Shown here: positions 10,993-63,262 of the stretch, piece by piece
Layout: every line of letters begins with the position of its first letter
Numbering within the stretch: position 1 is the stretch's first letter
Made by a program: the position numbers and the translations under genes
Source of the DNA: Deroplatys truncata
Lineage: Eukaryota > Arthropoda > Insecta > Mantodea > Mantidae
DNA length: 64,000 bases
Assembly (NCBI GenBank): GCA_030765065.1
Contig: CM060984.1
Location: 99,801,488 to 99,865,487, forward strand
Direction of reading: 5' to 3'
The notes under the pieces: model-generated
What the model was told of the DNA's origin: nothing
Databases searched by the model: none
What the model saw: only the letters and a program-made list of their open reading frames with translations

Positions 10993-11848
10993 ATTCTAAT
11001 TACGTTCTCTACTAGGTATAGAAGTATTGCATTCCACCCAAAAATTCGATACCGAAATTTCGCCGAAAATACATGTTTTGGGGCCCCTGAATACAAAAGA
11101 ACACTTTTAGAAAAATATCCGTGTATGTGTCTGTGAACAGCATAACACAAAAACGAAAAGTCGGATAAATACCAAACTTGGTATTTAGGTTCATTGTCTT
11201 TCAAAGATGCGACACGACGGTTTTCAAGAAAATCCCCCACTCCAGACTACCCTTTACATGGAAAATGTTTCGAAAATTTTTATTTTCTCAAAAATGGTTC
11301 TAACAATTTTGATAAAAACGTCATGTTTAAGATATCTCCATAGCAAATGAAATGTATTTCTTGAGTTTTTTGGGAATGTCCCCAAAAGTCCTCTTCTTTC
11401 TGAATGGCTTTTGCATAACTGATAAATCGTAAGACATAGACAAAGTTTTTCTACACAAAAAATATAGAGCTTATTAAAACACACAAATTATGTCATATGA
11501 TTTTTTTTATTATTTTTTTGTGGAGTGAACCATTTCCGATATATTCCTTGTTATTTATTTGAATTTTTCAATACTATACTTTTTCTCAAATGGGAATTCA
11601 TTATCAGTTTTTTTAAATGTCCTGGACATACAAAGACGATGGAATACTCCACGTAGCAACCAGCTCTTAAAATATTTGACTATCGCTTAAAGCCTACCTT
11701 ATTCCCCTTGCACTTACAAGAAAATTAGCAACAAGATAATTTATGCAAATGTTTATATCGATTAACATGAAGTAGATAGAGAATAAGAGTTTGCATAAAT
11801 AGTTTTTACAAGAGTAGAAAAGGTCATGTGAGTTTAACACATCAGACT
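10993..11848 (-). mobile_element. TCTGATG-family element, minus strand, diverged
   Basis: The 3' terminus is at left (ACGTTCTCTACTAGGTATAG) and the 5' terminus at right (AAAGGTCATGTGAGTTTAAC then ACATCAGA). The internal order matches other copies: CACCCAAAAATTCGATACCG, the GTGTCTGTGAACAGCAT block, CTTTACATGGAAAATG, and the block ending near 11690 in GACTATCGCTTAAAGCC. The CA-type microsatellite is very short in this copy, which suits an old insertion. Confidence 0.85.
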
Positions 11849-12259
11849 TTATTTAATATGCAGAAAGAAGAAAATCATATTAGAGTTTACGTGTTCCGAA
11901 GTCTTTCCAGATTTTTCATTGTATACGTTTTATAATTCTTTGAAATTGTAGAGATTTTTCAATATTTCCATGCATGGTGCTTACAAACTTTATATTTTAT
12001 ATGAATTTAGTAGAGAAATTGTTATATAATAACCGACAAGTTTAGATTGACGGAGGAGTAATTTTAAGAAGTCACAAAACCTGAGGCGTTAATGAGGAAG
12101 TGCAATATTAGCATTAGTAATTCTAATTCCTGGCTTTGACACTTTTCCCTCCATCAGATCAAACCCACTTTTACAAACAAACCCACAATTACTAATATTA
12201 TACGTCAGATGTGCTCTAATAAGTGTATGTAAAATATGTAAACATCACACATGAAAAAC
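11849..12259. other. AT-rich spacer, nothing recognised
   Basis: No gene or element end seen. Part of it (ATTTTTCATTGTATACG, GACGGAGGAGTAATTTTAAG) resembles 27400-27600, suggesting an unassigned old repeat shared by the two places. Confidence 0.35.
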
Positions 12260-13115
12260 TCTGTTGTGTCACATTCACATGACTTTATCTACCTCTATCG
12301 TTTATTAGTAGGTATAAAATATTCTTACCAAAGCTTATGTTTCTATTATCTTAACTTTCATTCACATAAACCTTTGCAGAAATAGCTACATTACACATTT
12401 ATTTATAGATACAAAGAGAACAGCGACAGTCAAATGATTAAGAACTGGACGCTATGTGCTGGCCTTAAAATTCGATGCTCTTTCCATGAAATCGCCAGAA
12501 GCAGCTGAAAACCGACAGGACTTTAAAAGAATGACAGTTTTGAACAATTCGAACCATTATTAACGGATATCTCAGAAATGGCTTATGCCACAAAAATTAT
12601 TCGTAATAAATTGTTTTTTTTGTAAAGATATCCACATTTTTTGTGTAGTACTTTTCGTCTATCGCTTAACTTTACCAGTTATGCAAGATTATACAAAATT
12701 CCTTCCGGATGAAGAAGACTTCACAGTCTATTCCCAGAAAATTCAAGATATACGTTTAATTTGTCACGTAAATATCCTTAATATATGATATTTTAATCAA
12801 AATTGTTAGAGCCAGTTTTTATAAAATCAAAAGCTTCGAAAAATGTTGCATGTAAAGGGTAGTTTGGGGTGGAAAGATTTTCCTGAAAGCTTTCGTGTCG
12901 CATCTTTGAAATACTGAACTTAAATACCCACAAGTTTGGTACTTTTCCGACTTTTCGTTTTTGAGTTATGTCGTTCACAAACACACGGACCTTTTTCTAA
13001 AAATGCTTTCGGGGGTGAGGGGGTTAAGGGGTCTGAAACCATAATTTTCGGTAAAATCTCTACGTCCAATGTTTCAGTGAAATACAATACTTACTATACT
13101 AGTAGAGAAAGTAAA
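12260..13115 (+). mobile_element. TCTGATG-family element, plus strand, old subfamily
   Basis: It starts TCTGTTGTGTCACATTCACA after an A-run and ends AGTAGAGAAAGTAAAA. It belongs to a diverged subgroup, with TTTATTAGTAGGTATAAA and CATAAACCTTTGCAGAAATA near the 5' end, also seen at 18690 and 35042. The microsatellite is almost absent. Confidence 0.85.
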
Positions 13116-13679
13116 AGTTGAAAAAGTGGCGTAGTTTTGAATTAATTAGTAAAACTAATACAATGAAAAAAATCTTGAAAGGCGTCAAAACATGTCAACT
13201 ATAATATCGTTTGTTCTATCTGTGTGCTGGGAATGAGATTTTGCTCTATGTTAATTTGCCTGCTAGATTTATTTTTAAGTGGAGACGAGTATTTACTGGA
13301 GTCGCTCTCATGTGGGCTCGAGCAAAATGTTCCAGACACGATCTAATGAGATATTGACAAGTTAACTAGCTAATGTAGCTCATGGATTCGTCAGGCAGAA
13401 AACATAGCATTCCAGATTTTCGCGATGTTTCCTCCAGTTGTAGTGGTAACTGGACGTCCTGAACGTCATCATAAAAACGCAGCATTTAAACTCCGCAGCC
13501 ATTTTCTTCACTACAGAAAATTATGACGAAGAATCTTCCAAAGTGGAATGAAGTTCCATTATGCTTCAGTTGGCGTTAAACTTTTAAATACGAAGTATTG
13601 AGTCACTATACGACGTGACATTCGATTTTATCAGTTTTCGGACAAGGCCTCAACACATGTAGTGTGCAACACTGTAACA
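13116..13679. other. Non-coding spacer, nothing recognised
   Basis: No ORF of interest and no repeat boundary seen. It separates a TCTGATG-family copy from a SINE. Confidence 0.3.
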
Positions 13680-14070
13680 ACCATCGAGCGAGATGACTTT
13701 GCGGTAAATTGTGAGACTGGCATTCGTGATGTCCCGGGTTCGATTTCCATCGAGCCGATCACTCTAATCTTGAGTTTCTCGTGGTTTCCCGGTGTCGCTA
13801 AGCAAACTGTCATGGCACTTGGGGGTGGCTCGGGACTTAGGCACAGCTGACCGGCATCAGAATTGACACCGTGTTGGAATCGATGTTGCGCTAGCGCACA
13901 TCATCGTCCGGATCTGGTCACCTTTCGGGTCTCCCCTTCATCCTTTCCTCCCAGGGGTCACGTTAAAAGCAAAAATGACAGACTGTGGCCTACTTGCGGT
14001 GCAATGCTCAAGTTATTGGACGCCTGCTCCCAACTCTTATCAACCAAGCTAATGGAAGTGCATGTATGAA
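13680..14070 (+). mobile_element. SINE-A (tRNA-headed), plus strand
   Basis: The head has a tRNA-like pol III promoter: an A-box-like GAGCGAGATGACTTTGCGG and a B box GGGTTCGATTTCC near 13737. The body contains TTTCTCGTGGTTTCCCGG and then a block shared with 31165-31260, 59265-59340 and, reversed, 17476-17520 (CCGGATCTGGTCACCTTTCG and CCCAGGGGTCACGTTAAAAG). These elements move with LINE enzymes and encode no protein. Confidence 0.75.
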
Positions 14071-14340
14071 ATGGTACGCTGCGCCATCTAAAGATCACAC
14101 TAGAGAACTACCCATGCTATTTGTTACTACCACCATCTCTGTTTCAGTACGAGAACTTTCTCTTCTGTATTTAAATAGGAGAAACATTTATAATAAATAA
14201 CAATTATTTAAAACAATAACAATTTGTTTTCTACATAAACATATCCACTACCGGCATTGTACTAAAACTAGTAAATGGTCAAACTTTTAGCAAATTATTA
14301 AGGGTGCATGTTAAAACCCTAAAAAGCGATATCTAAAAGT

Positions 14341-14470
14341 CTCTGCGGTCGAGTAGTTTGGCTTCCGAACTCAGAGGGCGGGTTCGATTCCCGGCTGGGA
14401 TGAGGAATTCATGCCCGCTCTCCCACAGAGTCTGGAAGTATGAATGTGTGAGTGAATGTGCATGTATGTT
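14341..14470 (+). mobile_element. Short tRNA-headed SINE (SINE-D), plus strand
   Basis: A tRNA-like head (GCGGTCGAGTAGTTTGGCTT, B box GGTTCGATTCC at about 14381) is followed by a body with AGAGTCTGGAAGTATGAATG, which recurs at 57407-57425 in a second copy. It ends just before a TCTGATG-family terminus. Confidence 0.65.
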
Positions 14471-14484
14471 TAACAGTAAACAAA

Positions 14485-15118
14485 TCTTATGTTACATTCA
14501 CATGACTTTCTCTACCTTCTATCTTTCATTAGTAGCTATACAAACTATTCTTACCAAAACTTATTACTTTCTCTACTACGTATAGTAAGTAGGAAAAGTA
14601 TTGTATTGCACCCAAAAATTCGATACCGAGATTTCACCCCCTGAATAAATAAAAAACATGTTTAGAAAAAGGTCCTTGTGTGTCTGTGTGGATGTGTGTG
14701 TCTGTGAACAGCATAACTCAAAAACGAAAATTCGGATAAATACCAAACTTGGTATTTAGGTTCAGTAGTATCTTTCAAAGATGCGACACAAATATTTTCA
14801 AGAAAATCCCCCTAGCCCAGACTACCCTTTACATGGAACATTTTTGGAAAGGTTTGAAATGTATATCCAGAATTGGGAGTGGGGGATTTTCTTGAGAACA
14901 TTTGTACCGCAGCTTTGGAGGGTACTGAATTAAATACCAAGTTTGTATTTATCCGACTTGTCCCTTTTGAGTTATGCTGTTCACAGACAAACACACGACA
15001 TACATGCGGACCTTCATCTAAAAATGTCTCAAAACGTGTATTTCCGATGAAATCTTGGTATATCGAATTTTTGGGTGGAACGTAATACCTTCTCTACCTA
15101 TATGTACTTGGTACAGAA
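14485..15118. mobile_element. TCTGATG-family fold-back composite
   Basis: The 5' terminus, plus strand, lies at 14485-14560 (TCTTATGTTACATTCACATG). At 14564 it runs into the reversed 3' half of a copy (ACTTTCTCTACTACGTATAG) that reads to about 14852, and then turns into a plus-oriented 3' half that ends near 15118. The two 3' halves face each other and could pair as a hairpin of about 250 bp per arm. Confidence 0.7.
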
Positions 15119-16013
15119 AGTAAAAATCTGATAAAACCAACGTAAAGAATACCTGCAGTTCAGCGAGCAATAACATCATCAGTTGCTTCTCCAGTCAAAG
15201 CCCCTGATAAGACCAAAAATGTTAAAGGGGTCTTACAAATAAAACATTATAAAATAAAGTTGCATTTTACTCTTGCCTACATGATGTATGAATGTTTCTC
15301 CAGCGTTTCATTAGTCCTTTCCATTTTACCTATTTTATAAAAACTCTCATTTGCATTTGTCTATTTCTACCAAACTATTTGTAACACGCTCGAACGTGTT
15401 TGTAAGTTTTCTAAGATATATTTTCGTACAAATTTTGGAAGGAATTCTCTCCTCTGCGCTTCTTCTCTTATAGGTCTAATAATTCATAAACTGAATAACG
15501 ATTCATATCGATTCGTTTACACCGCTGCAACTTCTTCCGGAAGTTTAAATTGGATTCCATAGTTATGCAAACCTGGAGAAATGGCTGTATCGATTTAATT
15601 AATAATTTGCTGATGACAACTTACTACGCAAGGGAGCGCGTAAATCTGTGACATATCACTGCTAAGTTAGAAACATTCCAGTCCAAACTTGAATAATGTT
15701 CATATTTGTGGATACATTACAGCGAACCACGAAAGGATTAATCCCATGCACGTAACTGTTGTATATTATACTGGTGTATAAAATCTGTAAAGTCAAGATC
15801 TAAACAATAAAAGCTATAAGCATATGGCCTGCAAAATGAAAATCTTCAAGACAATTTAATAATAATCCCATTATCATCATCATCATCCTTTATCTTCTGT
15901 ACACCTACACACATACTTGTGTACAAAGCAATAAAGCTTTATGGAGTACACATATAAATGACTAAATCCCTAGCGCTTAAAATATAGATAAAGATAACTT
16001 TTAACTGCAAATA
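15119..16013. other. AT-rich non-coding stretch, nothing recognised
   Basis: No ORF, repeat or RNA gene was recognised. A short CATCATCATCATC run lies near 15875. Confidence 0.3.
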
Positions 16014-17387
16014 CAGGTGTATCTTTATTGGTGTCATATATTTGGGGCACATGTTCCTGACATCAAAACAGTAAGAAAAGTTCATATGTACACGGGTCTG
16101 AAAATCAACCGTTTCGTTGTTATAGGTAACATTTTATATATATTCCATGAGTGAACAGACGAATATGACTACACGTATGGCCGTGCAGACGGCAATGCAG
16201 CACGAGCACGCGAACGTTATACTGAAAGGTAGCCTGACAGGCCGTTACCTTGTGCAAGAACATTCGCACGAAATCACCAACGCTTGAGAGAGAAAGGCGC
16301 ATTTGAGAGGAGTACTAGGGATGTTGGGAGACCAAGAGCGGTACGAGGCATTCAGCTTGAAGAACGAGTTCTTCGTGCTGTGGATGCAGACCCATCACAA
16401 AGCACAAGACGTATGGCTGTAAGGGAAAGAGTTAGTCATATGACTATCTGGAGAATTCTGCATGAAAATCTTCTGTACCCGTATCACCTTCAACGTGTGC
16501 AAGGCTTAAATGAGGCGGACTTTGAGCCAAGAAGACGTTTCTGTAAACGCATGTTACAGCAGTGTGCTGTGTTCATTAATTTCCTGGCCTGTATCTTATT
16601 CACGGAAGAAGCTGATTTTACTCGCGACGACATCTTCAATTTTCATAACACTCATAACTGGGCATTTGAAAGTCCTAATGAAGTACGACAGGACAACTAT
16701 CAACAGAGGTTCTCTCTCCACGTTTGGGGTGGAATCATTCATGATCACCTTATTGGTCCATACTTCTTCCCTCCCCGTCTGAATGGACATCTCTATCTCC
16801 AGTTTCTCAGAAATGAGTTGCATCACTTAACTGATTATGTGCCTCTGGACATCATCCAACAAATGTGGTTTTTACACGATGGTGCTCCAGCTCATTTCAG
16901 TATGATAGCTCGTAAGTTTTTGAATGATTGATTTCCGCAAAGATGGATTGGCCAAGGGGGACCCATTGCATGGCCTGCTCGATCGCCTGATTTGAATCCA
17001 ATGGATTTCTTCGTCTGGGGACTTTGAATTTTCTAACGAACTCGGTGCATATGTTAACCATGTTGGCCGTTCAGACCCTTTCAATTTATACAGTATCCCG
17101 TTGTGCACCTGATGTTAACATTTTGAGAGGACGTATCTAAATTGGATTTGACCAAATACAAAACACACCAGGAATTTTCAACAGAGTACGCCAGAGCATG
17201 GAACGCAGGCTTACTGCATGCATCAAAGCAAGAGGAAGCCACTTCGAGCAATTTTTGCAACTTTCGATTTTGTGTTGTAACTCTGATATAAATGATTTTC
17301 AGACCAATGTTCATATGAACTATTGTTATTGTTTTGATATCAAGAGCACGTCCCCCATATATATGACACCAATAAAGATACAACTTG
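16014..17387 (+). mobile_element. rosa/DD41D-like Tc1/mariner-superfamily element, inactive
   Basis: The terminal inverted repeats are clear. TGTATCTTTATTGGTGTCAT at 16018 is repeated in reverse as ATGACACCAATAAAGATACA ending at 17382, and similarity continues through GGGG to about 36 bp. TA dinucleotides at 16012-16013 and 17388-17389 fit TA target duplication, with one indel near the tips. The 1374-bp unit carries one plus-strand transposase pseudogene. It shares a transposase family, but not its end sequences, with the element at 8615-10022. Confidence 0.9.
16144..17255 (+). pseudogene. rosa/DD41D-like transposase pseudogene
   Basis: The N-terminal helix-turn-helix region is readable from about 16160 in a shifted frame (YGRADGNAARARERYTER). 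From 16284 a 215-codon open stretch includes FERSTRDVGRPR, MTIWRILHE, YPYHLQRVQGLNEADFEPRR, the first acidic motif with a changed residue (LFTEEADF where FTDEA is usual), HVWGGIIHDHLIGPYFF, and the second acidic motif HDGAPAHF. After a TGA at 16929 the same frame continues with AWPARSPDLNPMDFFVWG, holding the third acidic residue. Forty-one codons separate the second and third acidic positions, which is the DD41D spacing. The tail reads RQSMERRLTACIKARGSHFE near 17190-17250. A changed first catalytic residue, one stop and later frameshifts make it inactive. Confidence 0.88.
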
Positions 17388-19856: not shown

Positions 19857-21206
19857 TCTGATGTGTTACACTCACATGATTCAACTCTTGTACAAACTAT
19901 TTTTACAAACGCTTATTCTCCATATGCTTCATGTTATCGAGATGTTAATCTTATTGCTAATTTTCTTGTAGATGCAAGGGGAATTGATAGGCTTTAAGCT
20001 ATAGTCAAATATTTTAAGAGCTGGTTGCTATGTGGAGTATTCCATTCTCTTTGCATTACTAGAACAAAAAAAATGAATAACGAATTTGAGAAAAAGTATA
20101 AGTATTAGAAAATTTAAGGGAATAACAAACAATATCTCGAAAATGGTTCACTCAACAAAAAATGTATATGACATAAATTGTGTATTTTAACGCGATCTAC
20201 ATTTTTTGTGTAGTAAAATTTTCTCTATCTCTTATGGTTTACCAGTTATGCAAAAGTCGTTCACGATGAAGAATACTTTTGGAGACATTTCTAGAAAATT
20301 CTAGATATACATTTCATTTGTCATGAAAATATCTTAAACATATGATATTTTAATAAAAATCGATAGAGCCATTTTTGAGAAAATTAAAATGTTCGAAAAA
20401 TGTTCCGTGTAAAGGGTAATCTGGGGTGGGGGGATTTTCTTGAAAACCTTCGTGTCGCATCTCTGGAAGATACTGAACCTAAATACCAAGTTTGGTGTTT
20501 ATGCGACTGTTCGTTTCTGAGTTATGCTGTTAATAGACACACAGACACACACACGGACATGTTTTCAAAAATGTTTTTACTTTCTCTACTACGTATAGTA
20601 AGTAGGGGAAGTATTGCATTCCACCCAAAAATTCGATACCGAGATTTCACCGGAAATACATGTTTTGAGACTCACTGAATCCAAAAAAAAGCATTTTTGG
20701 AAACATGTCCGTGTGTGTGTGTGTGTCTGTGTGTCTGTGTGTCTGTGAACAGCATAACTCAGAAACGAGTCGTATAAACACCAAACTTGGTATTTAGGTT
20801 CAGTATCTTCCAGAGATGCGACACGAAGGTTTTCAAGAAAATCCCCCCACCCCAGACTACCCTTTACATGGAACATTTTTCGAAAATTTTAATTTTCTCA
20901 AAAATGGCTCTAACGATTTTGATTAAAATATCATATGTTTAAGATATTGTCATGAGAAATGAAATGTATATCTCGAATTTTCTGGGAATGTCTCCAAAAG
21001 TATTCTTCATTGTGAACGACTTTTGCATAACTGGTAAACCATAAGAGATGGACAAAATTTTACTACACAAAAAATGTAGATCGCGTTAAAATACACAATT
21101 TATGTCATATACATTTCTCTAGTTGAGTGAACCGTTTTCGAGATATTGCTTGTTATTCCCTTAAATTTTCCAATACTTATACTTTTTCTCAAATTCGTTA
21201 TTCGTT

Positions 21207-22990
21207 TTTACTTTCTCTACTACGTATAGTAAGTAGGGGAAGTATTGCATTCCACCCAAAAATTCGATACCGAGATTTCGCCGGAAATACATGTTTTGAG
21301 ACCTCCTGAATCCAAAAAAAGCATTTTTGGAAACATGTCCGTGTGTGTGTCTGTGTGTGTGTGTGTCTGTGTGTGTGTCTGTGTGTGTGTGTCTGTGTGT
21401 CTGTGAACAGCATAACTCAAAAACGAACAGTCGGATAAGCACCAAACTTGGTATTTAGGTTCAGTATCTTCCAGAGATGCGACACGAAGGTTTTCAAGAA
21501 AATCCCCCCACCCCAGACTACCCTTTACATGGAAGATTTTTCGAAAATTTTAATTTTCTCAAAAATGGCTCTAACGATTTTGATGAAAATATCATATGTT
21601 TAAGATAATGTCATGAGAAATGAAATGTATATCTCGAATTTTCTGGGAATGTCTCCAAAAGTATTCTTCATTGTGAACGACTTTTGCATAACTGGTAAAC
21701 CATAAGAGATAGACAAAATTTTACTACACAAAAAATGTAGATCGCGTTAAAATACACAACTTATGTCATATACATTTCTTTTGTTGAGTGAACCGTTTTC
21801 GAGATATTGCTTGTTATTTCCTTAAATTTTCCAATACTTATACTTTTTCTCAAATGCGTTATTCATTTTTTTTATGTCCTGGACATGCAAAGAGAATGGA
21901 ATGCGCCACATAGCAACCAGCGTTAAAATATTTGACTATCGCTTAAAAGCTACCATATTTCCCTTGCATCTACAAGAAAATCTGATGTGTTACACTCACA
22001 TGACTTTCTCTACTCTTGTACAAACTATTTTTACAAACGCTTATTCTCCATATGCTTCATGTTAATCGAGATATCGAGATGTCAATCTTATTGGTAATTT
22101 TCATGTAGATGCAAAGGGAATATGCTAGGTTTTAAGCGATAGTCAAATATTTTAACGCTGGTTGCTATGTGGCGCATTCCATTCTCTTTGCATGTCCAGG
22201 ACATAAAAAATGAATAACGCATTTGAGAAAAGGTATAAGTATTGGAAAATTTAAGAAAATAACAAGCAATATCTCGAAAACGGTTCACTCAACAAAAGAA
22301 ATGTATATGACATAAGTTGTGTATTTTAACGCGATCTACATTTTTTGTGTAGTAAAATTTTGTCTATCTCTTATGGTTTACCAGTTATGCAAAAGTCGTT
22401 CACAATGAAGAATACTTTTGGAGACATTCCCAGAAAATTCGAGATATACATTTCATTTGCCATGACATTATCTTAAACATATGATATTTTCATCAAAATC
22501 GTTAGAGCCATTTTTGAGAAAATTAAAATTTTCGAAAAATCTTCCATGTAAAGGGTAGTCTGGGGTGGGGGGATTTTCTTGAAAACCTTCGTGTCGCATC
22601 TCTGGAAGATACTGAACCTAAATACCAAGTTTGGTGCTTATCCGACTGTTCGTTTTTGAGTTATGCTGTTCACAGACACACAGACACACACACAGACACA
22701 CACACACACACACAGACACACACACAGAAACACACACGGACATGTTTCCAAAAATGCTTTTTTTGGATTCAGGAGGTCTCAAAACATGTATTTCCGGTGA
22801 AATCTCGGTATCGAATTTTTGGGTGGAATGCAATACTTCCCCTACTTACTATACGTAGTAGAGAAAGTAAAAATTACCAATAAGATTGACATCTCGATAT
22901 CTCGATTAACATGACGCATATGGAGAATAGGCGTTTGTAAAATTAGATTGTACAAGAGTAGAGAAAGTCATGTGAGTGTAACACATCAGA
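21207..22990 (-). mobile_element. TCTGATG-family third-level copy, minus strand, split by a plus-strand copy
   Basis: The 3' part lies at 21207-21978 with a long microsatellite, ending CATCTACAAGAAAA. The 5' part resumes at 22874 (TTACCAATAAGATTGACATC) and ends with CACATCAGA at about 22989. The uninterrupted equivalent at 45165-45190 reads straight through this junction. Confidence 0.82.
21979..22873 (+). mobile_element. TCTGATG-family innermost full copy, plus strand
   Basis: A complete 895-bp copy from TCTGATGTGTTACACTCACA to GTAGTAGAGAAAGTAAAAA. Because its empty site is known (CAAGAAAA|TTACC), it defines the ends best: the element sits between A and T with no duplication visible beyond the shared A-run. 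It is nearly the exact inverse of the adjoining minus copies, so 21207-22873 is a long inverted repeat. Confidence 0.9.
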
Positions 22991-23222
22991 TTTTTTTATG
23001 TCCTGGACATGTAAAGAGAATGGAATGCCCCACATAGCAACCAGCGTTAAAATATTTGACTATCGCTTTAAACCTAGCATATTCCCCTTGCATCTACATG
23101 AAAATTACCAATAAGATTAACATCTCGATATCTCGATTAACATGAAGCATATGGAGAATAAACGTTTGTAAAAATAGTTTGTAAAAGAGTACAGAAAGTC
23201 ATGTGAGTGTAACACATCAGAT
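22990..23222 (-). mobile_element. TCTGATG-family 5' segment, minus strand
   Basis: Only the 5' quarter is present (ATGTCCTGGACATGTAAAGA to ACATCAGA). It shares private variants with the 5' end of the next copy (CTTTAAACCTAGC, CATGAAAATTACC, AAAAGAGTACAGAAAG), so one is a duplicate of the other. Confidence 0.8.
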
Positions 23223-24098
23223 TTTTTACTTTCTCTACTACGTATAGTAAGTAGGGGAAGTATTGCATTCCACCCAAAAATTCGATACCGAGATTTCACC
23301 GGAAATACATGTTTTGAGACCTCCTGAATCCAAAAAAAGCATTTTTGGAAACATGTCCGTGTGTGTGTCTGTGTGTGTGTGTGTGTGTCTGTGTGTGTGT
23401 CTGTGAACAGCATAACTCAAAAACAAACAGTCGGATAAACACCAAACTTGGTATTTAGGTTCAGTATCTTCCAGAGATGCGACACGAAGGTTTTCAAGAA
23501 AATCCCCCCACCCCAGACTACCCTTTACATGGAAGATTTTTCGAAAATTTTAATTTTCTCAAAAATGGCTCTAACGATTTTGATGAAAATATCATATGTT
23601 TAAGATAATGTCATGAGAAATGAAATGTATATCTCGAATTTTCTGGGAATGTCTCCAAAAGTATTCTTCATTGTGAACGACTTTTGCATAACTGGTAAAC
23701 CATAAGAGATGGACAAAATTTTACTACACAAAAAATGTAGATCGCGTTAAAATACACAATTTATGTCATACACATTTCTTTTGTTGAGTGAACCGTTTTC
23801 GAGATATTGCTTGTTATTCCCTTAAATTTTCCAATACTTATACCTTTTCTCAAATGCGTTATTCATTTTTTTATGTCCTGGACATGCAAAGAGAATGGAA
23901 TGCGCCACATAGCAACCAGCGTTAAAATATTTGACTATCGCTTTAAACCTAGCATATTCCCCTTGTATCTACATGAAAATTACCAATAAGATTAACATCT
24001 CGATATCTCGACTAACATGAAGCATATGGAGAATAAACGTTTGTAAAAATAGTTTGTAAAAGAGTACAGAAAGTCATGTGAGTGTAACACATCAGATT
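23223..24098 (-). mobile_element. TCTGATG-family full copy, minus strand
   Basis: A complete copy from ACTTTCTCTACTACGTATAG to GTGTAACACATCAGA. It is very close in sequence to copies at 21207, 21979 and 44407, which suggests recent amplification. Confidence 0.88.
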
Positions 24099-27767: not shown

Positions 27768-28815
27768 ACGCTCTTTAACTACTATGGTTCTTAGCATCCC
27801 ATTCTATATTGGGCGTGAAAGGCCGGGATTTTGCTCAGAGGCCTCTTTATCAGGCTTGAGGTTCTCTTACGTGCCGTAAATCTACGACACGGGACGACAG
27901 GCTGTACTTCCCTTCCGAAGGAAGCCATGCTAAGGATTTTTAAGCTAAAAAAATTTGATGTGTTACACTCACCTGACTTTCTCTATCTAGTACAAACTAT
28001 TTTTACAAACGCTTATTCTCCATATGCTTCACGTTAATCGAGATGTTAATCTTATTGCTAATTTTCTTGTAGGTACAAGGGGAATATGGTAGGCTTTAAG
28101 CGATAGTCAAATCTTTTAAGAGCTCTATGTAGCGCATTCCATTCTCTTTGCATGTCCAATACATAAGTATTGGAAAATTTAAGGGAATAACAAGCAATGT
28201 CTCAAAAATGGTTCGCTCAACAAAAAATGTATATGACATAAATTGTGTATTTTAACGCGATCTACATTTTTTTTGTAGTAAAATCTTGTCTATCTCTTAT
28301 GGTTTACCAGTTATGCAAAAGTCGTTCACAATGAAGAATACTTTTGGAGACATTCCCAGAAAATTCTAGATATACATTTTATTTGTCATGAAAATATCTT
28401 AAACATATGATATTTTAATCAAAATCGTTAGAGCCATTTTTGAGAAAATTAAAATTTTGGAAAAATGTTCCATGTAAAATGTAATCTGGGGTGGGGGGAT
28501 TTTCTTGAAAACCTTCGTGTCGCATCTCTGGAAGATACTGAACCTAAATACCAAGTTTGGTGTTTATCCGACTGTTCGTTTCTGAGTTATGCTGTTCAGA
28601 GACACACACAGACACAGACATACATCCATACACATGCGTTTTTGGATTCAGGGGGTCTCAAAACATATATTTCTGGTGAAATCTCGGTATCGAATTTTTG
28701 GGTGGAATACAATACTTCCCCTACTTACTATACGTAGTAGAGAACGTAAAAATTATCCATCGTTCTCCGTCGGGTTTGAACTCCCTACCTCGGGAACTAG
28801 AGACACTGTGAAGCT
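27768..28815 (-). mobile_element. SINE-B, minus strand, split by a TCTGATG-family insertion
   Basis: The body lies at 27768-27953 (TTCTATATTGGGCGTGAAAG, GCTCAGAGGCCTCTT, CCTTCCGAAGGAAGCCATGC) and the head remnant at 28752-28815 (GTCGGGTTTGAACTCC, CCTCGGGAACTAGAGAC). In the intact copy at 17771-18049 these parts are adjacent across CGAAAAAATCCATCGC, so the insertion hit the A-run before T. Confidence 0.8.
27954..28751 (+). mobile_element. TCTGATG-family element inside SINE-B, plus strand
   Basis: A complete copy starting TTTGATGTGTTACACTCACC and ending TACGTAGTAGAGAACGTAAA. The surrounding SINE-B provides an independent empty-site comparison: A-run on the left, T on the right, no other duplication. 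Confidence 0.88.
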
Positions 28816-32736: not shown

Positions 32737-33572
32737 TTTTTACTTTCTCTATTACGTATAGTAAGTAGGGGAAGTATGGTATTCCAGCTAAAAATTCGAT
32801 ACCGAAATTTCACCGGAAATACATGTTTTGAGGCCCCTGAATAAAAAAAAAGCATTTTTGGAAATATGTCCGTGTGTGTCTGTGTGTCTGTGAACATCAT
32901 AACTCACAAACGAACAGTCGGATAACACCAAACTGGGTATTTAGGTTCAGTATCTTTCACAGATGCGACACGAAAGTTTTCAAGAAAATTCCCCCACCTC
33001 AGATTACCCTTTACATGGAACATTTTTCGAAAATTTTAATTTTCTCAAAAATGGCTATAACGATTTTGATTAGAGTATCATGTTTAAGACATTTTTATAG
33101 CAAATAAAATACTTATCTTGAATTTTCTGAGAATGTCTTCAAAAGTATTCTTCATTGTGAACGACTTTTGCATAACTGGTAAACCATAAGAGATAGAAAA
33201 ACTTTTACTACACAAAAAATGTAGATCGCGTTAAAATACACAATTTATGTCATTTTTTTGTTGAGTGAACCATTTTCAAGATAGTGCTTGTAATTCCCTT
33301 AAATTTTCCAATACTTCTAGTTTTTCTCAAATTCGCTATTCATTTTTTTGTCCTGGTAACGCAAAGAGAATGGAATACTCACATAGCAACCAGCTCTTAA
33401 AATATTTGACTATCGCTTAAAGCCTACCAATTCCCCTTGTATCTACAAGAAAATTAGCAATAAGATTAACATCTCGATATCTCTATTAACACGAAGCATA
33501 TGGAGAATAAGCGTTTGTAAAAATACTTTGTACAAGAGTAGAGAAAGTCATGTGAGTGTAGCACATCAGATT
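32737..33572 (-). mobile_element. TCTGATG-family element, minus strand
   Basis: Nearly complete copy from TACTTTCTCTATTACGTATA to GTGTAGCACATCAGA. The microsatellite is short (GTGTGTGTCTGTGTGTCTGT). Confidence 0.9.
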
Positions 33573-44406: not shown

Positions 44407-45297
44407 ATTTTTACTTTCTCTACTACGTACAGTAAGTAGGGGAAGTATTGCATTCCACCCAAAAATTCGATACCGAGATTTCACCGGAAATACATGTTTT
44501 GAGACCTCCTGAATCCAAAAAAAGCATTTTTGGAAACATGTCCGTGTGTGTGTCTGTGTGTGTGTGTCTGTGTGTGTGTGTGTCTGTGTGTCTGTGTGTG
44601 TGTGAACAGCATAACTCAAAAACGAACAGTCGGATAAACACCAAACTTGGTATTTAGGTTCAGTATCTTCCAGAGATGCGACACGAAGGTTTTCAAGAAA
44701 ATCCCCCCACCCCAGACTACCCTTTACATGGAACATTTTTCGAAAATTTTAATTTTCTCAAAAATGGCTCTAACGATTTTGATGAAAATATCATATGTTT
44801 AAGATAATATCATGAGAAATGAAATGTATATCTCGAATTTTCTGGGAATGTCTCCAAAAGTATTCTTCATTCTGAACGACTTTTGCATAACTGGTAAACT
44901 ATAAGAGATAGACAAAATTTTACTACACAAAAAATATAGATCGCGTTAAAATACACAACTTATGTCATATACATTTCTTTTGTTGAGTGAACCGTTTTCG
45001 AGATATTGCTTGTTATTTCCTTAAATTTTGCAATACTTATACTTTTTCTCAAATTCGTTATTCATTTTTTTATGTCCTGGACATGCAAAGAGAATGGAAT
45101 GCGCCACATAGCAACCAGCGTTAAAATATTTGACTATCGCTTAAAAGCTACCATATTCCCCTTGCATCTACAAGAAAATTACCAATAAGATTGACATTTC
45201 GATATCTCGATTAACATGAAGCATATGGAGAATAGGCGTTTGTAAAATTAGATTGTACAAGAGTAGAGAAAGTCATGTGAGTGTAACACATCAGATT
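44407..45297 (-). mobile_element. TCTGATG-family full copy, minus strand, young
   Basis: A complete 0.89 kb copy from TTTACTTTCTCTACTACGTA to GTGTAACACATCAGA. It is very similar to the copies at 21207-24098 and has a long GTGTGTCT microsatellite at 44543-44606. It is uninterrupted and so is a good reference for the nested copies. Confidence 0.92.
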
Positions 45298-50030: not shown

Positions 50031-51696
50031 TCTCTACTACGTATACTCAGTGTTGCATTCCACCCAAAAATTAGATACCAATATTTCATTGGAAATACAT
50101 ATTTTGAGCCCCCTGAATAAAAAAGAAACACTTTCAGAAAAAGGTCCATGTGTGCGTCCGTAAACAGCATTACTCAAAAACGAAAGTCTGATAAATGCCA
50201 AATTTGGTAATTAGTTTCAGCATCTTTCTAAGATGTGACTCGAAGATTTTCAGGAAAATCCCCTCGCCCCAGACTACCCTTTACGTGAAACCTTTTTCGA
50301 AAATTTTGATTTTCTCATAATGGCTCTAACGATTTTGATTAAAATATCATATATTTAAGATATTTTCATAATATATAAAATTTATATCTTGAATTTTCTG
50401 GGAATGTCCCCAAAAGTCCTCTTATTTATGAATGGCTTTTGCATTACTGGTAAACCGTAAGAGATAGACAATATTTTTCTACACAAAAAATTTAGAGCTC
50501 GTTAAAAGACGCAATTTATATATTTTTGCTTTCTCTACTACGTATAGTAAGTAGGGGAAGTATTGTATTCCGTCCAAAAATTCGATACCGAGATTTCACC
50601 GGAAATACATGTTTTGACTGAATCCAAAAAAAAGTATTTTTGGAAACATGTCCGTCTGTGTGTCTGTGTGTCTGCCTGTGAACAGCATAACTCAGAAACG
50701 AACAGTCCGAGAAACACTAAACTTGATATTTAGGTTCAGTATCTTCCACAGATGCGACACTAAGGTTTTCAAGAAAATCCCCCCACCCCAGATTACCCTT
50801 TACATGGAACATTTTTTGAAAATTTTAATTTTCTCAAAAATGGCTCTAACGATTTTGATTAAAGTATCATATGTTTAAGATATTTTCATGACAAATGAAA
50901 TGTATATCTTGAATTTTCTTGGAATGTCTCCAAGAGTATTCTTCATTGTGAACGACTTTTGCATAACTGCTAAACCATAAGAGATAGACAAAATTTTACT
51001 TCACAAAAAATGTAGATCGCATTAAAATACACAATTTATGTCTTACATTTTTTTTGTTGAATGAACCATTTTCAAGATATTGATTGTTATTCCGTTAAAT
51101 TTTCCAATACTTATACTTTTTCTCAAATGGGAATTTGTTATTCATTTTTTTGTCCTGGTAATGCAAAAAGAATGGAATACTCTACATAGCAACCAGCTCT
51201 TAAAATATTTGTCTATCGCTTAAAGCCTACCTATTCCCCTTGCATCTACAAGAAAATTAGCAATAAGATTAACATCTCGATATCTCGATTAACATGAAGC
51301 ATATGGAGAATAAGCGTGCGTAAAAATAGTTTGTACAAGAGTAGAGAAAGTCATGTGAGTGTAACACATAAGATTTTTTTCTTGTGGAGTGAACCTATTT
51401 CGAGATATTCCTTGTTATTTGTTTGAGCTTTCCAATACTTATATTTTTTTCAAATGAGAATTCGCTATTTGTTTTTTTATGTCCTGGACATGCAAAGGGA
51501 ATGAAATGCTCCACATAGCAACCGGCTCTTAAAAGATCTGACTATCGCTTAAAGACTACCATATTCCGTTTGCACGTACAAGAAAATTAGCAATAAGATG
51601 CAAATGTTTATCTCGATTAATATGAAGTAGATGAGAATAAGCGTTTGTAAAAATAGTTTGTATAAGAATAGAGAAAGTCATGTGAGTGTGACACAA
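50031..51696 (-). mobile_element. TCTGATG-family middle copy of the nest, minus strand
   Basis: The 3' part lies at 50031-50524 (TCTCTACTACGTATACTCAG onward) and the 5' part at 51372-51696 (CTTGTGGAGTGAACCTATTT to GTGAGTGTGACACA). The missing middle is replaced by a third copy. Confidence 0.82.
50525..51371 (-). mobile_element. TCTGATG-family inner copy of the nest, minus strand
   Basis: A complete copy from TTTGCTTTCTCTACTACGTA to GTGTAACACATAAGA, with a short microsatellite. It sits in a T-run of the middle copy. Confidence 0.87.
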
Positions 51697-52506: not shown

Positions 52507-53342
52507 TTTTTTACTTTCTCTACTACGTACAGTAAGTAGGATAAGTAGGTATTGCATTCCACCCAAAAATTCGATGTTGAGATTTCACCGGAAGTATGTG
52601 TTTGGAGACCCCCTTAATAAAAAAAAATTAGAAAAAGGTACGCGTGTGAATAGCATAACTAAAACAAAAAGTCGGATACGTACCAAACTTGGTATTTAGA
52701 TTTAGTACCTTCCAAAGATGTGACACAAAGGTTTTCAAGGAAATTCCCTCACCCCAAACTATCCTTTATTTGGAACATTTTTCGAATTTTTTATTTTTTA
52801 AAAAATGGCTCTAACAATTTTGATTAAAATACAATATATTAAAGATATATACATGACAAATAAAACATATTTTGAACATTCTGGGAATAGTCTGCGAAGT
52901 CCTCTTCATTCGGAAGGAATGAAGAATTTACCTGCATAACAGATAAACGTTAAGCCATAGACGAAAATGTACTCATAAAAAATGTAGATCTCTTTAAAGC
53001 ATACAATTTATTTCAAAATTTTTTTTGTGGTATCAGCATTTTCGAAATATCCTTGATTAATGGTTTGAATTGCTCATTACTAAGCCAGTCTTTTAAAGTA
53101 CTATCGACTTTCATTTGTCTGGCGATGTCTTGGAAAGAGTATGGAATTTTAAGGCCAGCGTATACTGTCCAGTTCTAAGACATCTGACTATCGCTATGTG
53201 TAATGCAGCTATTTCTGGAAAGGTTTGTCTCGATTAAAATGAAGTAGATAGAAAAATACATTTTTGTAAGGATAGTTTGTATACACACTGTTAAACGATA
53301 GAGTACAGCGAAAGTCATGTGAAAGTAACACATCAGATTTTC
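52507..53342 (-). mobile_element. TCTGATG-family element, minus strand, diverged
   Basis: From TTTACTTTCTCTACTACGTA to GTCATGTGAAAGTAACACAT. The microsatellite has almost disappeared (ACGCGTGTGAATAGC). Confidence 0.87.
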
Positions 53343-53484: not shown

Positions 53485-54757
53485 TTTACATGACATTCAC
53501 GAATCACTGTGGTTTTGTTTTTGTATCATTTCAGGAAACTGTTCTTAAAAAAACTTTATTTTGCATCTACTTCACATTATTGAAAATAAATGTTTGCAGA
53601 AACGGTTACTTTACACATTTCGTTGTAGGTGCAATGGGAATACAGGAGACTGGAAGTGATAGTCAAACCTTTAAAAATCTGATTTGATACATTCACATGA
53701 CTTTCACTGTGCTCTATCGTTTTGTCTATAAAATAAGAATAGTATACAAACTATTCTTAGAAAAATTAATTTTTTATCTACTTCATTTTATTCTAGATAA
53801 ACCTTTCCAGAAATAGCCGCATTACATATTTCGTTATAATACACAGGGAACAGCGAAAGTCAAATGTTTAAAAACTGGTAGCTATACACTGGCCTTAAAA
53901 TGTCATATAGTTTTCATGACATTGTGAGAAACAATTCAATGTTGACACAACTTTAAAAGAATGGCTAAGTATCGAACAATTTCGAACCATTAATAACGGG
54001 TATCTCGGAAATGGCTGATGTCACAAAAGGACTTATTGAACTAAATTGTGTGTTTTAAAGAGATCTAAATTGTGTAGTACGTTTTCGTCTATTTATTAGC
54101 GTTTACCAGTTATACAAAATTATACAAAATTTCTTCCGAATGAAGGACTTCATAGGCTATTCCCAGAAAATTCAAGACATCCATTTTATTTGCCATGTAA
54201 ACTTCTTTAATATATGGTATTTTAATCAAAATCGTTTGAGTCATTTTTTGAAAATCAGAATTTTGAAAAATGAATCATGTAAAGGGTAGTTGGGAGTGGA
54301 GGAATTTATTGGAAATCTTTGTGTCGCATCTTTAAAAGGTAGTGAACCTAAATACAAAGTTTGATGTTTATCCGACTTTTCGTTTTAAGCCATGCTGTTA
54401 ACACACATACACACACGCGCACGGGTCTTTTTCTAAAAATGCTTTTTTAAATTTAGGGGGCCTAAAATATGTATTTTCGGTGAAATCTCGGTATCAATTT
54501 TTGGGTGGAATGCAATAGTACCTTCTCTACCTACTATATACCTGGTAGAGAAAGTAAAAAGGGAGTCGTTATATCCTGGCTTTGAAATTCCATACTCTTT
54601 CCATGCCATTGTTTTAAACAAACGAATGGCACATTAGCACTTCATAAACTTTATTGGAAAATTCCAACCAATGACAACGAATATCTTGGAAAAGGTTAAT
54701 ACCTCAATAAATGGGGTGCTTTAAAGGGACAAATACTTTTTGTGCGGTTAGTTGAAG
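53485..54757 (+). mobile_element. TCTGATG-family old copy split by a later copy, plus strand
   Basis: The left part 53485-53677 (TTACATGACATTCACG, GGTGCAATGGGAATACAG) and right part 54561-54757 (TTTGAAATTCCATACTCTTT onward) are consecutive in the family consensus. The insertion point is again an A-run (ACCTTTAAAAA). Confidence 0.7.
53678..54560 (+). mobile_element. TCTGATG-family inner copy, plus strand
   Basis: Complete copy from TCTGATTTGATACATTCACA to GGTAGAGAAAGTAAAAA, old subfamily. Confidence 0.87.
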
Positions 54758-57014: not shown

Positions 57015-57288
57015 TTTACCAGTACTGCAAAATTAAACAAAACACTCATTCAGAATAAACGGGAGTTTTGAATAATTTTGCAATGCTGGTAAACCATAAA
57101 ACTCATTCAGAATAAACAGGAGTTTTGTATAATTTTACAATATGTTAAACCATAAAATTCATTCAGAATAAACGGAAGTTATGAATAATTTTGCAATGCT
57201 AGTAAAGCATAAAACTCATTCGGAATAAACAAGAGTTTTGTATAGTTTTACAATATGGTAAACCATAAAGCTCATTCAGAATACACAG
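57015..57288 (+). repeat. Tandem repeat with alternating unit types, about 56 bp each
   Basis: Units carry CTCATTCAGAATAAAC, then GGAGTTTTG, then either AATAATTTTGCAATGCTxGT (type A) or TATAATTTTACAATATG (type B), then AAACCATAAA. The order is A-B-A-B, a higher-order period of about 112 bp. The sequence resembles the TCTGATG-family segment CTTATGGTTTACCAGT next to GAATGAAGA. Confidence 0.85.
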
Positions 57289-57460
57289 GAGGTTGGCCGC
57301 GTAACCCATCGTTAAAGCATCTGCATGTTGTGCGAGGGGTTCCGGGTTCGAGTTCAGGCTGGGTGGAAATTTTTCTCTAGCCAAGATTATTCCCCATCCT
57401 CACCAGAGTCTGGAAGTATGAATGAGAGTGTGAATGTGTGTGATCTAATAAATAAAACCC
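57289..57460 (+). mobile_element. Short tRNA-headed SINE (SINE-D), plus strand
   Basis: The tRNA-like head has B box GGGTTCGAGTTC at 57343-57354. The body has AGAGTCTGGAAGTATGAATG, shared with 14341-14470, and an A-rich tail (AATAAATAAAAC). Confidence 0.68.
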
Positions 57461-57805: not shown

Positions 57806-58717
57806 TTTGATGTGTTACACTCACATGACTTTCTCTACTCTTGTACAAACTATTTGTACAAACGCTTATTCTCCATCTACTTCATGTTAATCGAGATAAA
57901 CATTTGCAGAGCCTATCTTATTGCTATTTTTCTTGTAGATGTGAAGGGGAATATATACTTACCAGGGCAATTTGGAAATACAGTAACCTTTAAGCACATA
58001 TCTCTTAATAGCTAGTTGCTAGGTGCAGCACCATTCCCTTTGCCACAGATTAATACTCTTTGCATATCCAAGACAAAAAATGAATAACGAATTCCCATTT
58101 GAGAAAATAAGTATTGAAAAATTTAAGGGAATAACAAGTAATATCTCGAAAATGGTTCACTCAACAAAAAATATGTATACGACATAAATTGTGTATTTTA
58201 ACGCGATCTACATTGTTTGTGTAGTAACATTTTGTCTATCTCTTACGGTTTACGAGTTATGCAAAAGTCGTTCACAATAAAGAATACTTTTGGAGACATT
58301 CCCAGCAAATTCAAGATATACATTTTATTTGTCATGAAAATATCTTAAACATATGATATTTTAATCAAAATCGTTAAAGCCATTTTTGAGAAAATTAAAA
58401 TTTTCGAAAAATGTTTCATGTAAAGGGTAATCTGGGTTGAGAGGATTTTCTTGAAAACCTTCGTGTCGCATCTCTGGAAGATACTGAACCTAAATACCAA
58501 GTTTGGAGTTTATTCGACTGTTCGTTTCTGAGTTATGCTGTTCACAGACACACAGACACACACACACACACAGACAGACACACGGACATGTTTCCAAAAA
58601 TGCTTTTTTTGGATTCAGGAGATCTCAAAACATGTATTTCCGTTGAAATCTCGGTATCGAATTTTTGGGTGGAATACAATACTTCCCCTACTTACTATAC
58701 GTAGTAGAGAAATTAAA
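57806..58717 (+). mobile_element. TCTGATG-family full copy, plus strand
   Basis: Complete copy from TTTGATGTGTTACACTCACA to CGTAGTAGAGAAATTAAAT, inserted in the A-run of the preceding copy. Intermediate CA microsatellite at 58545-58584. Confidence 0.9.
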
Positions 58718-60112: not shown

Positions 60113-60113
60113 A

Positions 60114-60953
60114 TTTTACTTTCTCTACTACGTAAAGTAAATAGGGGAAGTATTGTATTCCACCCAAAAATTTGATACCGTGATTTCAACAGAAATATAT
60201 GTTTTGAGACCCCCTGAATCCAAAAAAAAGTATTTTTGGAAACATGTTCGTGTGTGTCTGTCTGTGAACAGCATAACTCAGAAACGAACAGTCGGATAAA
60301 CACCAAACTTGGTATTTATGTTCAATATCTTCCAGAGACGCGACACGAAGGTTTTAAAGAAAATCCTCCCACCCCAAATTACCCTTTACATACAACATTT
60401 TTCGAAACTTTTAATTTTCTCAAAAATGGCTCTAACGATTTTGATTAAAATATCATATGTTTAAGATATTTTCATGACAAATAAAATGTATATTTTGAAT
60501 TTTCTGGGAATGTCTCCAAAAGTATTCTTCATTGTGAACGACTTTTGCATAACTGGTAAACCATAAGAGATAGACAAAAGTTTACTACACAAAAAATGTA
60601 GATCGCGTTAATACACAATTTATGTCATATAATTTTTGTTGTTGAGTGAACCATTTTCGAGATATTGCTTGTTATTCCCTTAAATTTTCCAATACTTATA
60701 CTTTTTCTCAAATGGGAATTCGTTATTCATTTTGTTTACGTACTGGACATGCAAAGAGAATGGAATGCGCCACATAGCAACCAGCTCTTAAAGATGTGAC
60801 TATCGCTTAAAGCCTACCATATTCCCCTTGCACCTACAAGAAAATTAGCAATAAGATTAACATCTCAAATATCATGAAGCATATGGAGAATAAGCGTTTG
60901 TAAAAATAGTTTGTACAAGAGTAGTTAAAGTCATGTGAGTGTAACACATCAGA
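60114..60953 (-). mobile_element. TCTGATG-family full copy, minus strand
   Basis: From TTTACTTTCTCTACTACGTA to GTGTAACACATCAGA, with a short GTGTGTGTCTGTCTG microsatellite. Confidence 0.9.
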
Positions 60954-61385
60954 TTTTTTTTATTTGTTTAGCGTTAACTCATTCTAGGTAAACGCACAGT
61001 GCCCACTAGTGTTTGAATGCTTTTAAAATGCAAATTATTTAATGGAGAGAAGAAAATATCACATACTATCAGAAATACTTGCCATGAGCTGCAGAGTTGC
61101 ACTATATCCGCGGTGGTCCACAAAACAGAAGAGAATCTGACAGTGTATGCGTGCGCAGCATGGTCGGGAAATTTTATCACCACGTCATAATGCTTATCAT
61201 CGTAAACTCCGCATTCCGGTAGACGACGGGACCGAGGATGGCTTATCTCCAAGCAGAGAAAAACAACGTAAAAGTGACATGTTTACGACCTTGTATCGGC
61301 AGCCACTGTTGTACCTCAGGCTTGCTGCCAGGACCTTCAGTTTCAAAATTTAGACGAGCAAAGTTGATTCGACATAAACGCTTTC
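60954..61385. other. Non-coding spacer, nothing recognised
   Basis: Less AT-rich than its neighbours around 61080-61330, but no ORF with recognisable content. Confidence 0.3.
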
Positions 61386-61474
61386 TTCACACTTAGGGTT
61401 CTTCTTCTTCTTCTTCTTCTTCTTCTTCTTCTTCTTCTTCTTCTTCTTCTTCTTCTTCTTCTTCTTCTTCTTCT
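61386..61474 (+). repeat. (TTC)n microsatellite, about 29 units
   Basis: Uninterrupted TTC repeats over about 88 bp. A similar, shorter TTC run ends the non-LTR fragment at 39350, so this may be the tail of a lost minus-strand retroelement. Confidence 0.95.
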
Positions 61475-61519
61475 CCTCTTCAAGTGTTAGGTTCCTTAGC
61501 CAGCTCCTATGCCCATTTT

Positions 61520-62330
61520 ACGATCTCTACCACGTACAAAGTAGGTAGAGAAGGTATTGCATTCCACCCACTACCGAGATTTCATAAAAAAAATCTGATG
61601 TGTTACACTCACATGACTTTCTCTACTCTTGTACAAACTATTTTTACAAACGCTTATTCTCCATCTACTTCATGTTAATCGAGATAAACATTTGCAGACT
61701 CTAAGGGGAATATATATTTACAAGGGCAATATAGAAATACAGTAAGGCTTTAAACACATACATATCTCTTAATAGCTGGTTGCTAGGTGCAGCACCATTC
61801 CCTTTGCCACAGATTAATACTCTTTGCATATCCAAGACAAAAAAAATGAATAACGAATTTCCATTTGAGAAAACAAGTATTGAAAAATTTAAGGGAATAA
61901 CAAGTAATATCTCGAAAATGGTTCACTCAACAACAAAAAATGTATATGACATAAATTGTGTATTTTAATGCGATCTACATTGTTTGTGTAGTAACATTTT
62001 GTCTATCTCTTATGGTTTACGAGTTATGCAAAAGTCGTTCACAATGAAGAATACTTTTTGAGACATTCCCAGCAAATTCAAGATATACATTTTATTTGTC
62101 ATGAAAATATCTTAAACATATGATATTTTAATCAAAATCGTTAGAGCCATTTTTGAGAAAATTAAAATGTTCGAAAAATCTTCCATGTAAAGGGTACTCT
62201 GGGATGGGGGTATTTTCTTGAAAACCTTCGTGTCGCATCCTTGGAAGATACGGAACCTAAATACCAAGTTTGGTGTTTATCCGACTGTTCGTTTCTGAGT
62301 TATGCTGTTCACAGACAGACACACACTCAG

Positions 62331-62363
<33 letters not shown>

Positions 62364-63262
62364 GACACACAGACACACACACGGACATGTTTCCAAAAAT
62401 TCTTTTTTTGGATTCAGGAGATCTCAAAACATGTATTTCCGTTGAAATCTCGGTATCGAATTTTTGGGTGGAATACAATACTTCCCCTACTTACTATACG
62501 TAGTAGAGAAAGTAAAAACATGTTTTAAGACCTCTGAATCAAAAAATGAACATTTTTAGAAAAAGGTCCGTGTGTGTGTGATGTGTATGTTGTGAACAGC
62601 ATAAATAAAAAAACGTAAAGTCGGATAAATATCACACCGACAGTATCTTCAAAGCATGCGGCAAGAAAATCTTCAAGAATATTCTTCCACCTCATTCCTT
62701 TACATGGAATATTTTTCGAAATTTTGGCTCTAGCGATTTTTATTAAAAAACCATATGTCAAAGATATGTATATGGCAAATAAAATGTTTACCTTTTATTT
62801 TCTAGAAATAACCTGTGAAGTTCTCTTTATTTGGAAATATGTTTTTATAATCTTGTACACCTGACTGGTACACGTTAAACGATACGACACAAAATGTAGA
62901 TATCTTTAAAACACACAATTTGTTTATAATAACCTTTTTTGTGGCATAAGCCACTTCCGAGATATCCCTTACTGATGTTCGAATTGATCAATATTATTGT
63001 CATTCTTTTAAGTCCTGTCAACATTCAGTTGTTTCTCGCGATTGCTGCGAAAGAGTATGGAATTTCAAGGCCAGCACATAGCATCCAGTCCTTAAACATC
63101 TATCGCTGTTATCTTTGTATCCTAACGAAATGTGTAATGTAGCTATTTCTGCAAAAGGTTTATCTCAATATAGAAAAATAAGCTTTCATAGGTATAGTTT
63201 GTATAGTCACTCATAAGCGATAGTGCGTAGGGAAACTCATGTGAATGTAACACATAAGATTT
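61520..63262 (-). mobile_element. TCTGATG-family old copy split by a plus-strand copy, minus strand
   Basis: The 3' part is 61520-61590 (ATCTCTACCACGTACAAAGT, GAAGGTATTGCATTCCACCC) and the rest 62519-63262 (CATGTTTTAAGACCTCTGAA to AACTCATGTGAATGTAACAC). The gap is filled exactly by one young copy. Confidence 0.78.
61594..62518 (+). mobile_element. TCTGATG-family full copy, plus strand, young
   Basis: Complete 925-bp copy from TCTGATGTGTTACACTCACA to GTAGTAGAGAAAGTAAAAA, with a long CA/CAGA microsatellite at about 62312-62382. Very close in sequence to 57806-58717. Confidence 0.92.

Follow-up and report, generated by a model that had tools for sequence, protein, structure and literature searches.

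Canonical Helitrons have 5'-TC and CTRR-3' ends and insert between A and T. Helentrons, in the part of the published description consulted here (PMC4067079), combine Rep, helicase and apurinic/apyrimidinic (AP) endonuclease, and their non-autonomous relatives, the HINEs such as DINE-1 (INE-1), are characterised there by subterminal inverted repeats (subTIRs) of 12–15 bp, an inverted repeat by the 5' subTIR, a 3' stem-loop, a microsatellite, T-rich targets that stay unmodified, strings of T at the boundaries and a coding Helentron partner. We analysed a 64,000-bp stretch of the mantid Deroplatys truncata (GenBank assembly GCA_030765065.1, contig CM060984.1, positions 99,801,488 to 99,865,487; hereafter the window), which harbours a repeat family sharing these features, with a weak candidate for the 3' stem-loop. 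This family is very probably a non-autonomous Helentron (a DINE-1-like HINE) of about 0.8–0.9 kb, and a rolling-circle element that this genome still contains in intact form probably copied its members. The class is already known; the family appears to be a new member of it, with an apparently distinct consensus, and differs from the described HINEs further in its exceptionally high copy number and its frequent insertion into its own internal T7 run. The unexpected part of the analysis, beside a family of known class, is a group of palindromic Mavericks carrying pieces of it.

A first-pass annotation, made from the letters of the window alone, had proposed a Helentron-like, non-autonomous repeat family covering roughly a third of the window. 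With up to two mismatches, the 12-mer that forms the subTIRs occurs at 74 sites where 7.5 are expected, and the palindrome TACTATACGTAGTA at 17 where 0.29 are expected; none of 100 shuffles reached either count. Eleven copies with both ends, 794–920 bp in length, were aligned. Nine of them are 87–98% identical to each other, and two older ones, starting at 11002 and 52513, are 82–85% and 71–75% identical to the nine. A looser scan added two further both-ended copies, one of them shortened, which stand outside the alignment (Table 1). With the 11 copies as queries and fragments included, the family covers 21,089 of 64,000 bp (33.0%), compared to 552 bp (0.9%) in the reversed window, so that both the family and its predicted coverage are borne out.

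The 5' and 3' ends used here follow the Helentron convention, as far as it is set out in the consulted part of PMC4067079. By this convention the end first taken as 5' (TCTGATG) is the true 3' end. Because the two ends had been exchanged, the CA/CAGA microsatellite and the large palindrome, both correctly recognised but assigned to the 3' side, belong to the true 5' side of the element, the microsatellite near that end and the palindrome at it. The true 5' end reads T5-ACTTTCTCTACT-ACGTATAGTA-AGTAGGGGAAGT, that is, subTIR, palindrome and second arm, which together fold into a single 14-pair hairpin (matched by 4 of 200 shuffles). The true 3' end reads AGTAGAGAAAGT-C-ATGTG-AGTGTAA-CACAT-CAGA and is followed by the target T-run. 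The actual 3' hairpin is thus a weak ATGTG/CACAT stem adjoining CATCAGA, whose 5 bp were kept in all three 3' ends folded, with a variable loop. In their commonest form the two subTIRs are identical at 12/12 nt, with mismatches in single copies, and their placement is asymmetric, as had been noted: one lies at the terminus (position 0) behind the T-tract, and at the opposite end the other is set back by 22 nt. Among the 11 aligned copies the microsatellite is long in five, short in five and nearly missing in the copy at 52513.

The first-pass annotation had also suggested looking in the same genome for an autonomous partner with Rep and helicase. Using the PF14214 profile, with 150 of 291 candidates scored, we obtained at least 152 Rep matches. 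One group of near-identical loci has frames reaching 2,543 aa; among the matches listed, a manual count found at least 18 that are uninterrupted by a stop and belong to frames of 2,100 aa or more. One locus of this group (L039/L040) was read through and has HINE-type ends 10,030 bp apart, with a single frame of 2,408 codons between them. The predicted protein matches Herpes_teg_N, in a region that we take to be OTU-like, followed by DUF6570, Helitron_like_N (98.7 bits) and PIF1 (101.9 bits); its C-terminus, scanned alone, matches Exo_endo_phos_2 of the exonuclease-endonuclease-phosphatase (EEP) type with 27.9 bits (cut-off 27.4). The motifs RGSPHEH, GKT, GDFN and SDH follow each other in this order. 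As predicted from these matches, the domain make-up is that of a Helentron, with Rep, PIF1 helicase and C-terminal endonuclease in one protein. In its domain order and in the kind of its ends the partner resembles the Helentrons described earlier; it differs in its single 2,408-codon frame with the presumably OTU-like region and DUF6570, and in a duplicated 5' end in five of seven copies. In the first half of the frame a long run of short peptide repeats (KMKNTKNLKGRE-like) was observed that is open in a second frame too.

All seven partner copies whose ends were inspected (the one read through and six more checked at their ends) have the partner-type 3' end and the 12-mer 5' end. The first 578–746 bp of the partner are 83.6–91.4% identical to nine of the 11 aligned window copies, its first 549 and 636 bp are 74.8% and 80.8% identical to the two older ones, and its last 30–33 bp are 85–94% identical to all 11. 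All ten sister Rep loci examined are 96.7–99.0% identical to it over about 3.6 kb, and the partner is therefore young. A coding Helentron with the same kind of ends thus exists in this genome, in line with the assignment first proposed. Other Rep loci found with the profile (L009–L028) mostly contain internal stops, and their DNA is unlike the Helentron except for HINE pieces in L018 and L025.

Exact counts on both strands of the whole assembly (4.29 Gb, 818 contigs) gave 537,760 12-mers compared to 2,012 in the reversed control, 120,382 3' ends of 28 nt (control 0) and 103,007 5' ends of 35 nt including five Ts (control 0). Assuming two 12-mers per copy and a length of 0.86 kb, the 12-mers would represent about 269,000 copy equivalents and account for about 5% of the genome. 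At about 20–123 kb of contig C1 (L001–L008) a tandem array was observed, with units of about 3,409 bp and one HINE copy per unit.

The internal run of the family, CGTTATTCA-T7-ATGTCCTGG, is itself a frequent target, which results in copies within copies; the window contains a nest three deep (20579–23221). Genome-wide, this site occurs 35,416 times empty and 8,823 times joined to a 3' end, giving an occupancy of about 20% among the matching sites; 31 of 100 listed empty sites belong to one tandem array. Among the matches listed, five Ts precede the inserted 5' end at 84 of 100 T7 junctions. This proportion leans on repeats of the same insertions, since 61 of the 100, sorted manually, lie in Maverick-type vehicles, all with five Ts; the other 39 comprise 23 junctions with five Ts, ten with six, two with four, two with two and two impure ones. 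The number of Ts behind the 3' end averaged 7.40 (94 pure of 100 listed) and did not differ from that at empty sites outside the tandem array (7.58; 60 pure of 69 listed; p = 0.17). At a target with four Ts, five Ts were found on the 5' side in three of four cases and six in one, and on the 3' side four Ts in 11 of 17 cases and five to eight in 6 of 17; the 17 3' junctions here and the 8,823 at the T7 site are to be compared with the reservation that the two patterns may not be equally conserved. Of the four insertions read at both ends, three (L044, which is the window's own copy in a four-T target, L045 and L047) have five Ts before and four after the element. In 28 both-ended copies deduplicated by their flanks, five Ts precede the 5' end in 18, three of which (L056, L066 and L071) represent one insertion carried by palindromes, and the Ts on the 3' side range from 0 to 9.

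Thus, the 5' end is preceded by about five Ts irrespective of the target T-run, which is itself preserved on the 3' side. In the few cases at a four-T target, where it could be distinguished, a target duplication of fixed length did not show up, the junctions having five Ts before the element and four after it, in agreement with the first description of the family. Most simply, about five Ts would be part of the element, which would insert at the upstream edge of a T-run without any target bases being duplicated. Rep, helicase and endonuclease of the resident Helentrons would recognise the 5' end, consisting of T-tract, subTIR and palindrome, and copy one strand by rolling circle, a chemistry suggested by the protein family. 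Copying would halt at the 3' subTIR, hairpin and CATCAGA, and the single strand would be joined immediately upstream of a T-run. The family is probably still active. With more than 100,000 perfect-ended copies, intact partners and thousands of self-insertions into sites known in their empty state, it provides a natural data set for Helentron targeting and joining, which already indicates the placement of the boundary Ts.

Several observations weigh against the Helentron assignment or against this account of joining. The endonuclease domain barely exceeds the cut-off when scanned alone, falls below it in a larger piece (24.1 bits) and has no match in PDB at 0.01. The 3' hairpin of the consensus is short, and its folding is not better than that of shuffled sequences, 75 of 200 of which equalled or surpassed it. 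Over the last 60 bp, the partner agrees with each of the 11 aligned copies at just 34–40 positions (57–67%). In the consulted part of PMC4067079 an 11-bp subTIR defines a Helentron family and 80% identity over the last 60 bp a subfamily; since the subTIR is shared and the last 60 bp fall short of 80%, partner and window copies are placed in one family and in different subfamilies, and a closer partner than the element at L039/L040 may exist. With regard to joining, the fourth four-T insertion read at both ends (L041) has six Ts on either side, and the 6 of 17 3' junctions with more than four Ts at this site do not fit. At targets of five or more Ts, five element-borne Ts look the same as a five-T duplication, so that the four-T site alone separates the two, and the 3' pattern used at that site is blind to a duplication starting with A.

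A DNA element of the cut-and-paste type that depends on a DDE transposase, that is, a miniature inverted-repeat transposable element (MITE) with an A/T target duplication of 4–5 bp, would likewise be short, abundant and partly inverted at its ends, and T-runs on both sides could mimic its duplication. We consider this highly improbable, as the 12-mers lie asymmetrically at 0 and 22 nt, a four-T target gave five and four Ts in three of the four insertions read at both ends, and the coding partner has Rep, helicase and EEP domains, a dedicated search for DDE transposases not having been made. There is equally little to recommend a non-autonomous family of canonical Helitrons, which lack an endonuclease, or of Helitron2. 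The ends found here, ACTTTC and CATCAGA, are not the TC...CTRR ends of canonical Helitrons, and the targets are T-runs instead of A next to T. The Rep/PIF1 core is common to all these groups, and Helitron2, in the part of PMC4067079 consulted, likewise shows asymmetry of its inverted repeats, with a palindrome at either end; however, the C-terminal EEP domain of the partner speaks against both readings.

Much of the copy number could also be passive, the copies being carried along by other amplifying units such as the tandem array near the start of C1, Mavericks and palindromes. The array holds one copy in each unit of about 3.4 kb, several HINE pieces reside in each palindrome, and the 61 listed T7 junctions in such vehicles point the same way. 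Yet about 1,000 elements with the Maverick end described below (2,083 termini), the one Maverick family covered by this comparison, are too few for more than 100,000 exact HINE ends, and passive spread on this scale is very unlikely. Taken together, we favour copying of the family by resident Helentrons.

Nesting appears to have affected the partner as well. In five of the seven partner copies two 5' ends stand in tandem, 646–679 bp apart, with an identical 30-nt junction in four and agreement across the 20 nt seen in the fifth, and in six of seven HINE interior follows the 3' end. The seventh copy (C4) begins at the outer 5' end, directly behind the 3' T-run of another copy, and ends at the inner 3' end, after which no HINE interior can be seen. 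Based on this copy and the tandem 5' ends, it therefore seems that a Helentron landed in a HINE and then moved on using the 5' end of the HINE, that is, that ends were switched through nesting.

Mirror-image groups on C1, noticed among the listed 5' junctions, turned out to be discrete elements. Two palindromes were measured (C1:13829376-13847453, 18,078 bp, and C1:26119218-26137298, 18,081 bp); their arms are 99.4–99.8% alike. The former was read through; its arms carry a 76-bp tandem array as well as HINE pieces. No frame longer than 143 aa was found in the left half and centre of this palindrome, and three palindrome frames that were scanned (142, 129 and 103 aa) matched no Pfam family. Mavericks (Polintons), according to the part of PMC8097293 consulted, have (AGT)2//(ACT)2 ends and a 6-bp duplication. 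All 13 elements checked, nine palindromes and four of about 19.1–19.8 kb, start with AGTAGT, end with ACTACT and have a perfect 6-bp duplication. These duplications show that the palindromes integrated. The terminus occurs 2,083 times in the genome (control 0); 88 of 100 listed C1 termini form 44 facing pairs, at least 20 of which are palindromic as judged from tip or arm comparison.

One element, C1:80867430-80887186 (L088–L091; 19,757 bp), has terminal repeats of only 160 bp and frames for a polymerase of type B and a chromodomain-bearing integrase; three further open reading frames had no match in Pfam, and its left part holds HINE pieces. The likeness to described Mavericks (PMC8097293, as far as consulted) thus extends from ends and 6-bp duplication to integrase-chromodomain and polymerase B in this copy, whereas at least 20 of the listed pairs are palindromic and the palindrome read through contains no recognisable gene. 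The left terminal stretch of the 19,757-bp element is 96–97% identical to that of the palindrome, the match becoming patchy further in; in the sampled pieces of this element, neither the tandem array nor the centre of the palindrome turned up. A PF03175 search for Maverick-type polymerase B gave 11,882 first-look candidates, of which 76 were scored, with many open frames of about 1,260–1,315 aa; Mavericks may be very numerous in this genome.

The 37-nt tip of the palindrome occurs 574 times in identical form in the genome, which suggests a single founder. Among the 44 listed pairs the exact tip is present in 19, all 16.4–18.6 kb in length, and lies within 6 bp of the midpoint in nine and within 152 bp in 17. 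Twelve of the 25 pairs without it measure 19.0–19.8 kb and the rest 5.9 to 27.6 kb; at least the pair at 26.1 Mb is palindromic, its tip being altered. In all four loci compared, the arms within a locus are more alike (99.6–99.9%) than arms of different loci (96.8–99.4%).

On balance, we lean towards regarding the palindromes as a Maverick satellite that lacks genes and is represented by hundreds of insertions in this genome. Its two arms, each about 9 kb long and nearly perfectly matched, meet at one fixed tip; its outer part is shared with the left, non-coding end of a Maverick, and its length with the exact tip (16.4–18.6 kb) is just under that of the 19.0–19.8-kb class to which the coding element belongs. 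It would have formed by snapback during protein-primed replication, in the manner of a defective-interfering genome, and would be mobilised in trans and integrated by the Maverick integrase. The snapback step, any packaging and re-copying of the arms from each other are what we infer from this build; gene conversion between the arms is an alternative to re-copying. The snapback satellites of adeno-associated virus (AAV), as far as described in the consulted part of PMC8235507, offer an analogy. If confirmed, such satellites would be genomic evidence of a virus-like replication of Mavericks with defective parasites of their own. Among the titles and beginnings of abstracts consulted, no palindromic or non-autonomous Mavericks were recognised, which is no proof of their absence from the literature. 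An assembly artefact was also considered and is unlikely: nine palindromes are flanked by different sequences and bear perfect duplications, length and arm variants are not the same from locus to locus, and a single tip is repeated 574 times.

Table 1. Copies of the HINE family and example features in the window
Feature	Position	Strand	Remark
Full-length HINE copy, older (82–85% to nine others)	11002..11846	+	Both ends; in alignment
Both-ended shortened copy, 639 bp	14483..15121	-	Looser scan
Nest	20579..23221	+	Outer copy 20579-21209 + 22991-23221, interrupted at its own T-run by copy 21210-22990
Nested copy in internal T-run of outer copy	21210..22990	+	5 Ts before 5' end, 7 Ts after 3' end
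Full-length copy within copy 21210-22990, 4-T target	21981..22868	-	5 Ts before, 4 after
Full-length copy, in T-run behind 3' end of preceding copy	23228..24096	+	In alignment
Full-length copy	27954..28747	-	In alignment
Full-length copy	32742..33570	+	In alignment
Full-length copy	44413..45295	+	In alignment
Full-length copy	50528..51373	+	In alignment
Full-length copy, diverged subfamily (71–75% to rest), same 5' 12-mer and 3' end	52513..53337	+	In alignment
Both-ended copy, 878 bp	53678..54555	-	Looser scan
Full-length copy	57806..58714	-	In alignment
Full-length copy	60118..60953	+	In alignment
Full-length copy	61594..62513	-	In alignment
True 5' end, example: 12-mer subTIR, TACTACGTATAGTA palindrome, second arm AGTAGGGGAAGT	62480..62513	-	
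True 3' end, example: inverse 12-mer subTIR, ATGTG/CACAT hairpin, CATCAGA, target T-run	61594..61627	-	
CA/CAGA microsatellite within copy 61594-62513	62310..62382	+	

Beside the HINE family, the window contains a frame resembling a Tc1/mariner transposase at 16284–16931, with a match to HTH_Tnp_Tc3_2 below the cut-off, and tandem repeats at 47186–48086 (106-bp units) and 57044–57291 (57-bp units). On the minus strand at 2097–5731 lie the frames of a non-LTR retrotransposon, encoding an EEP endonuclease followed by reverse transcriptase and RNase H.

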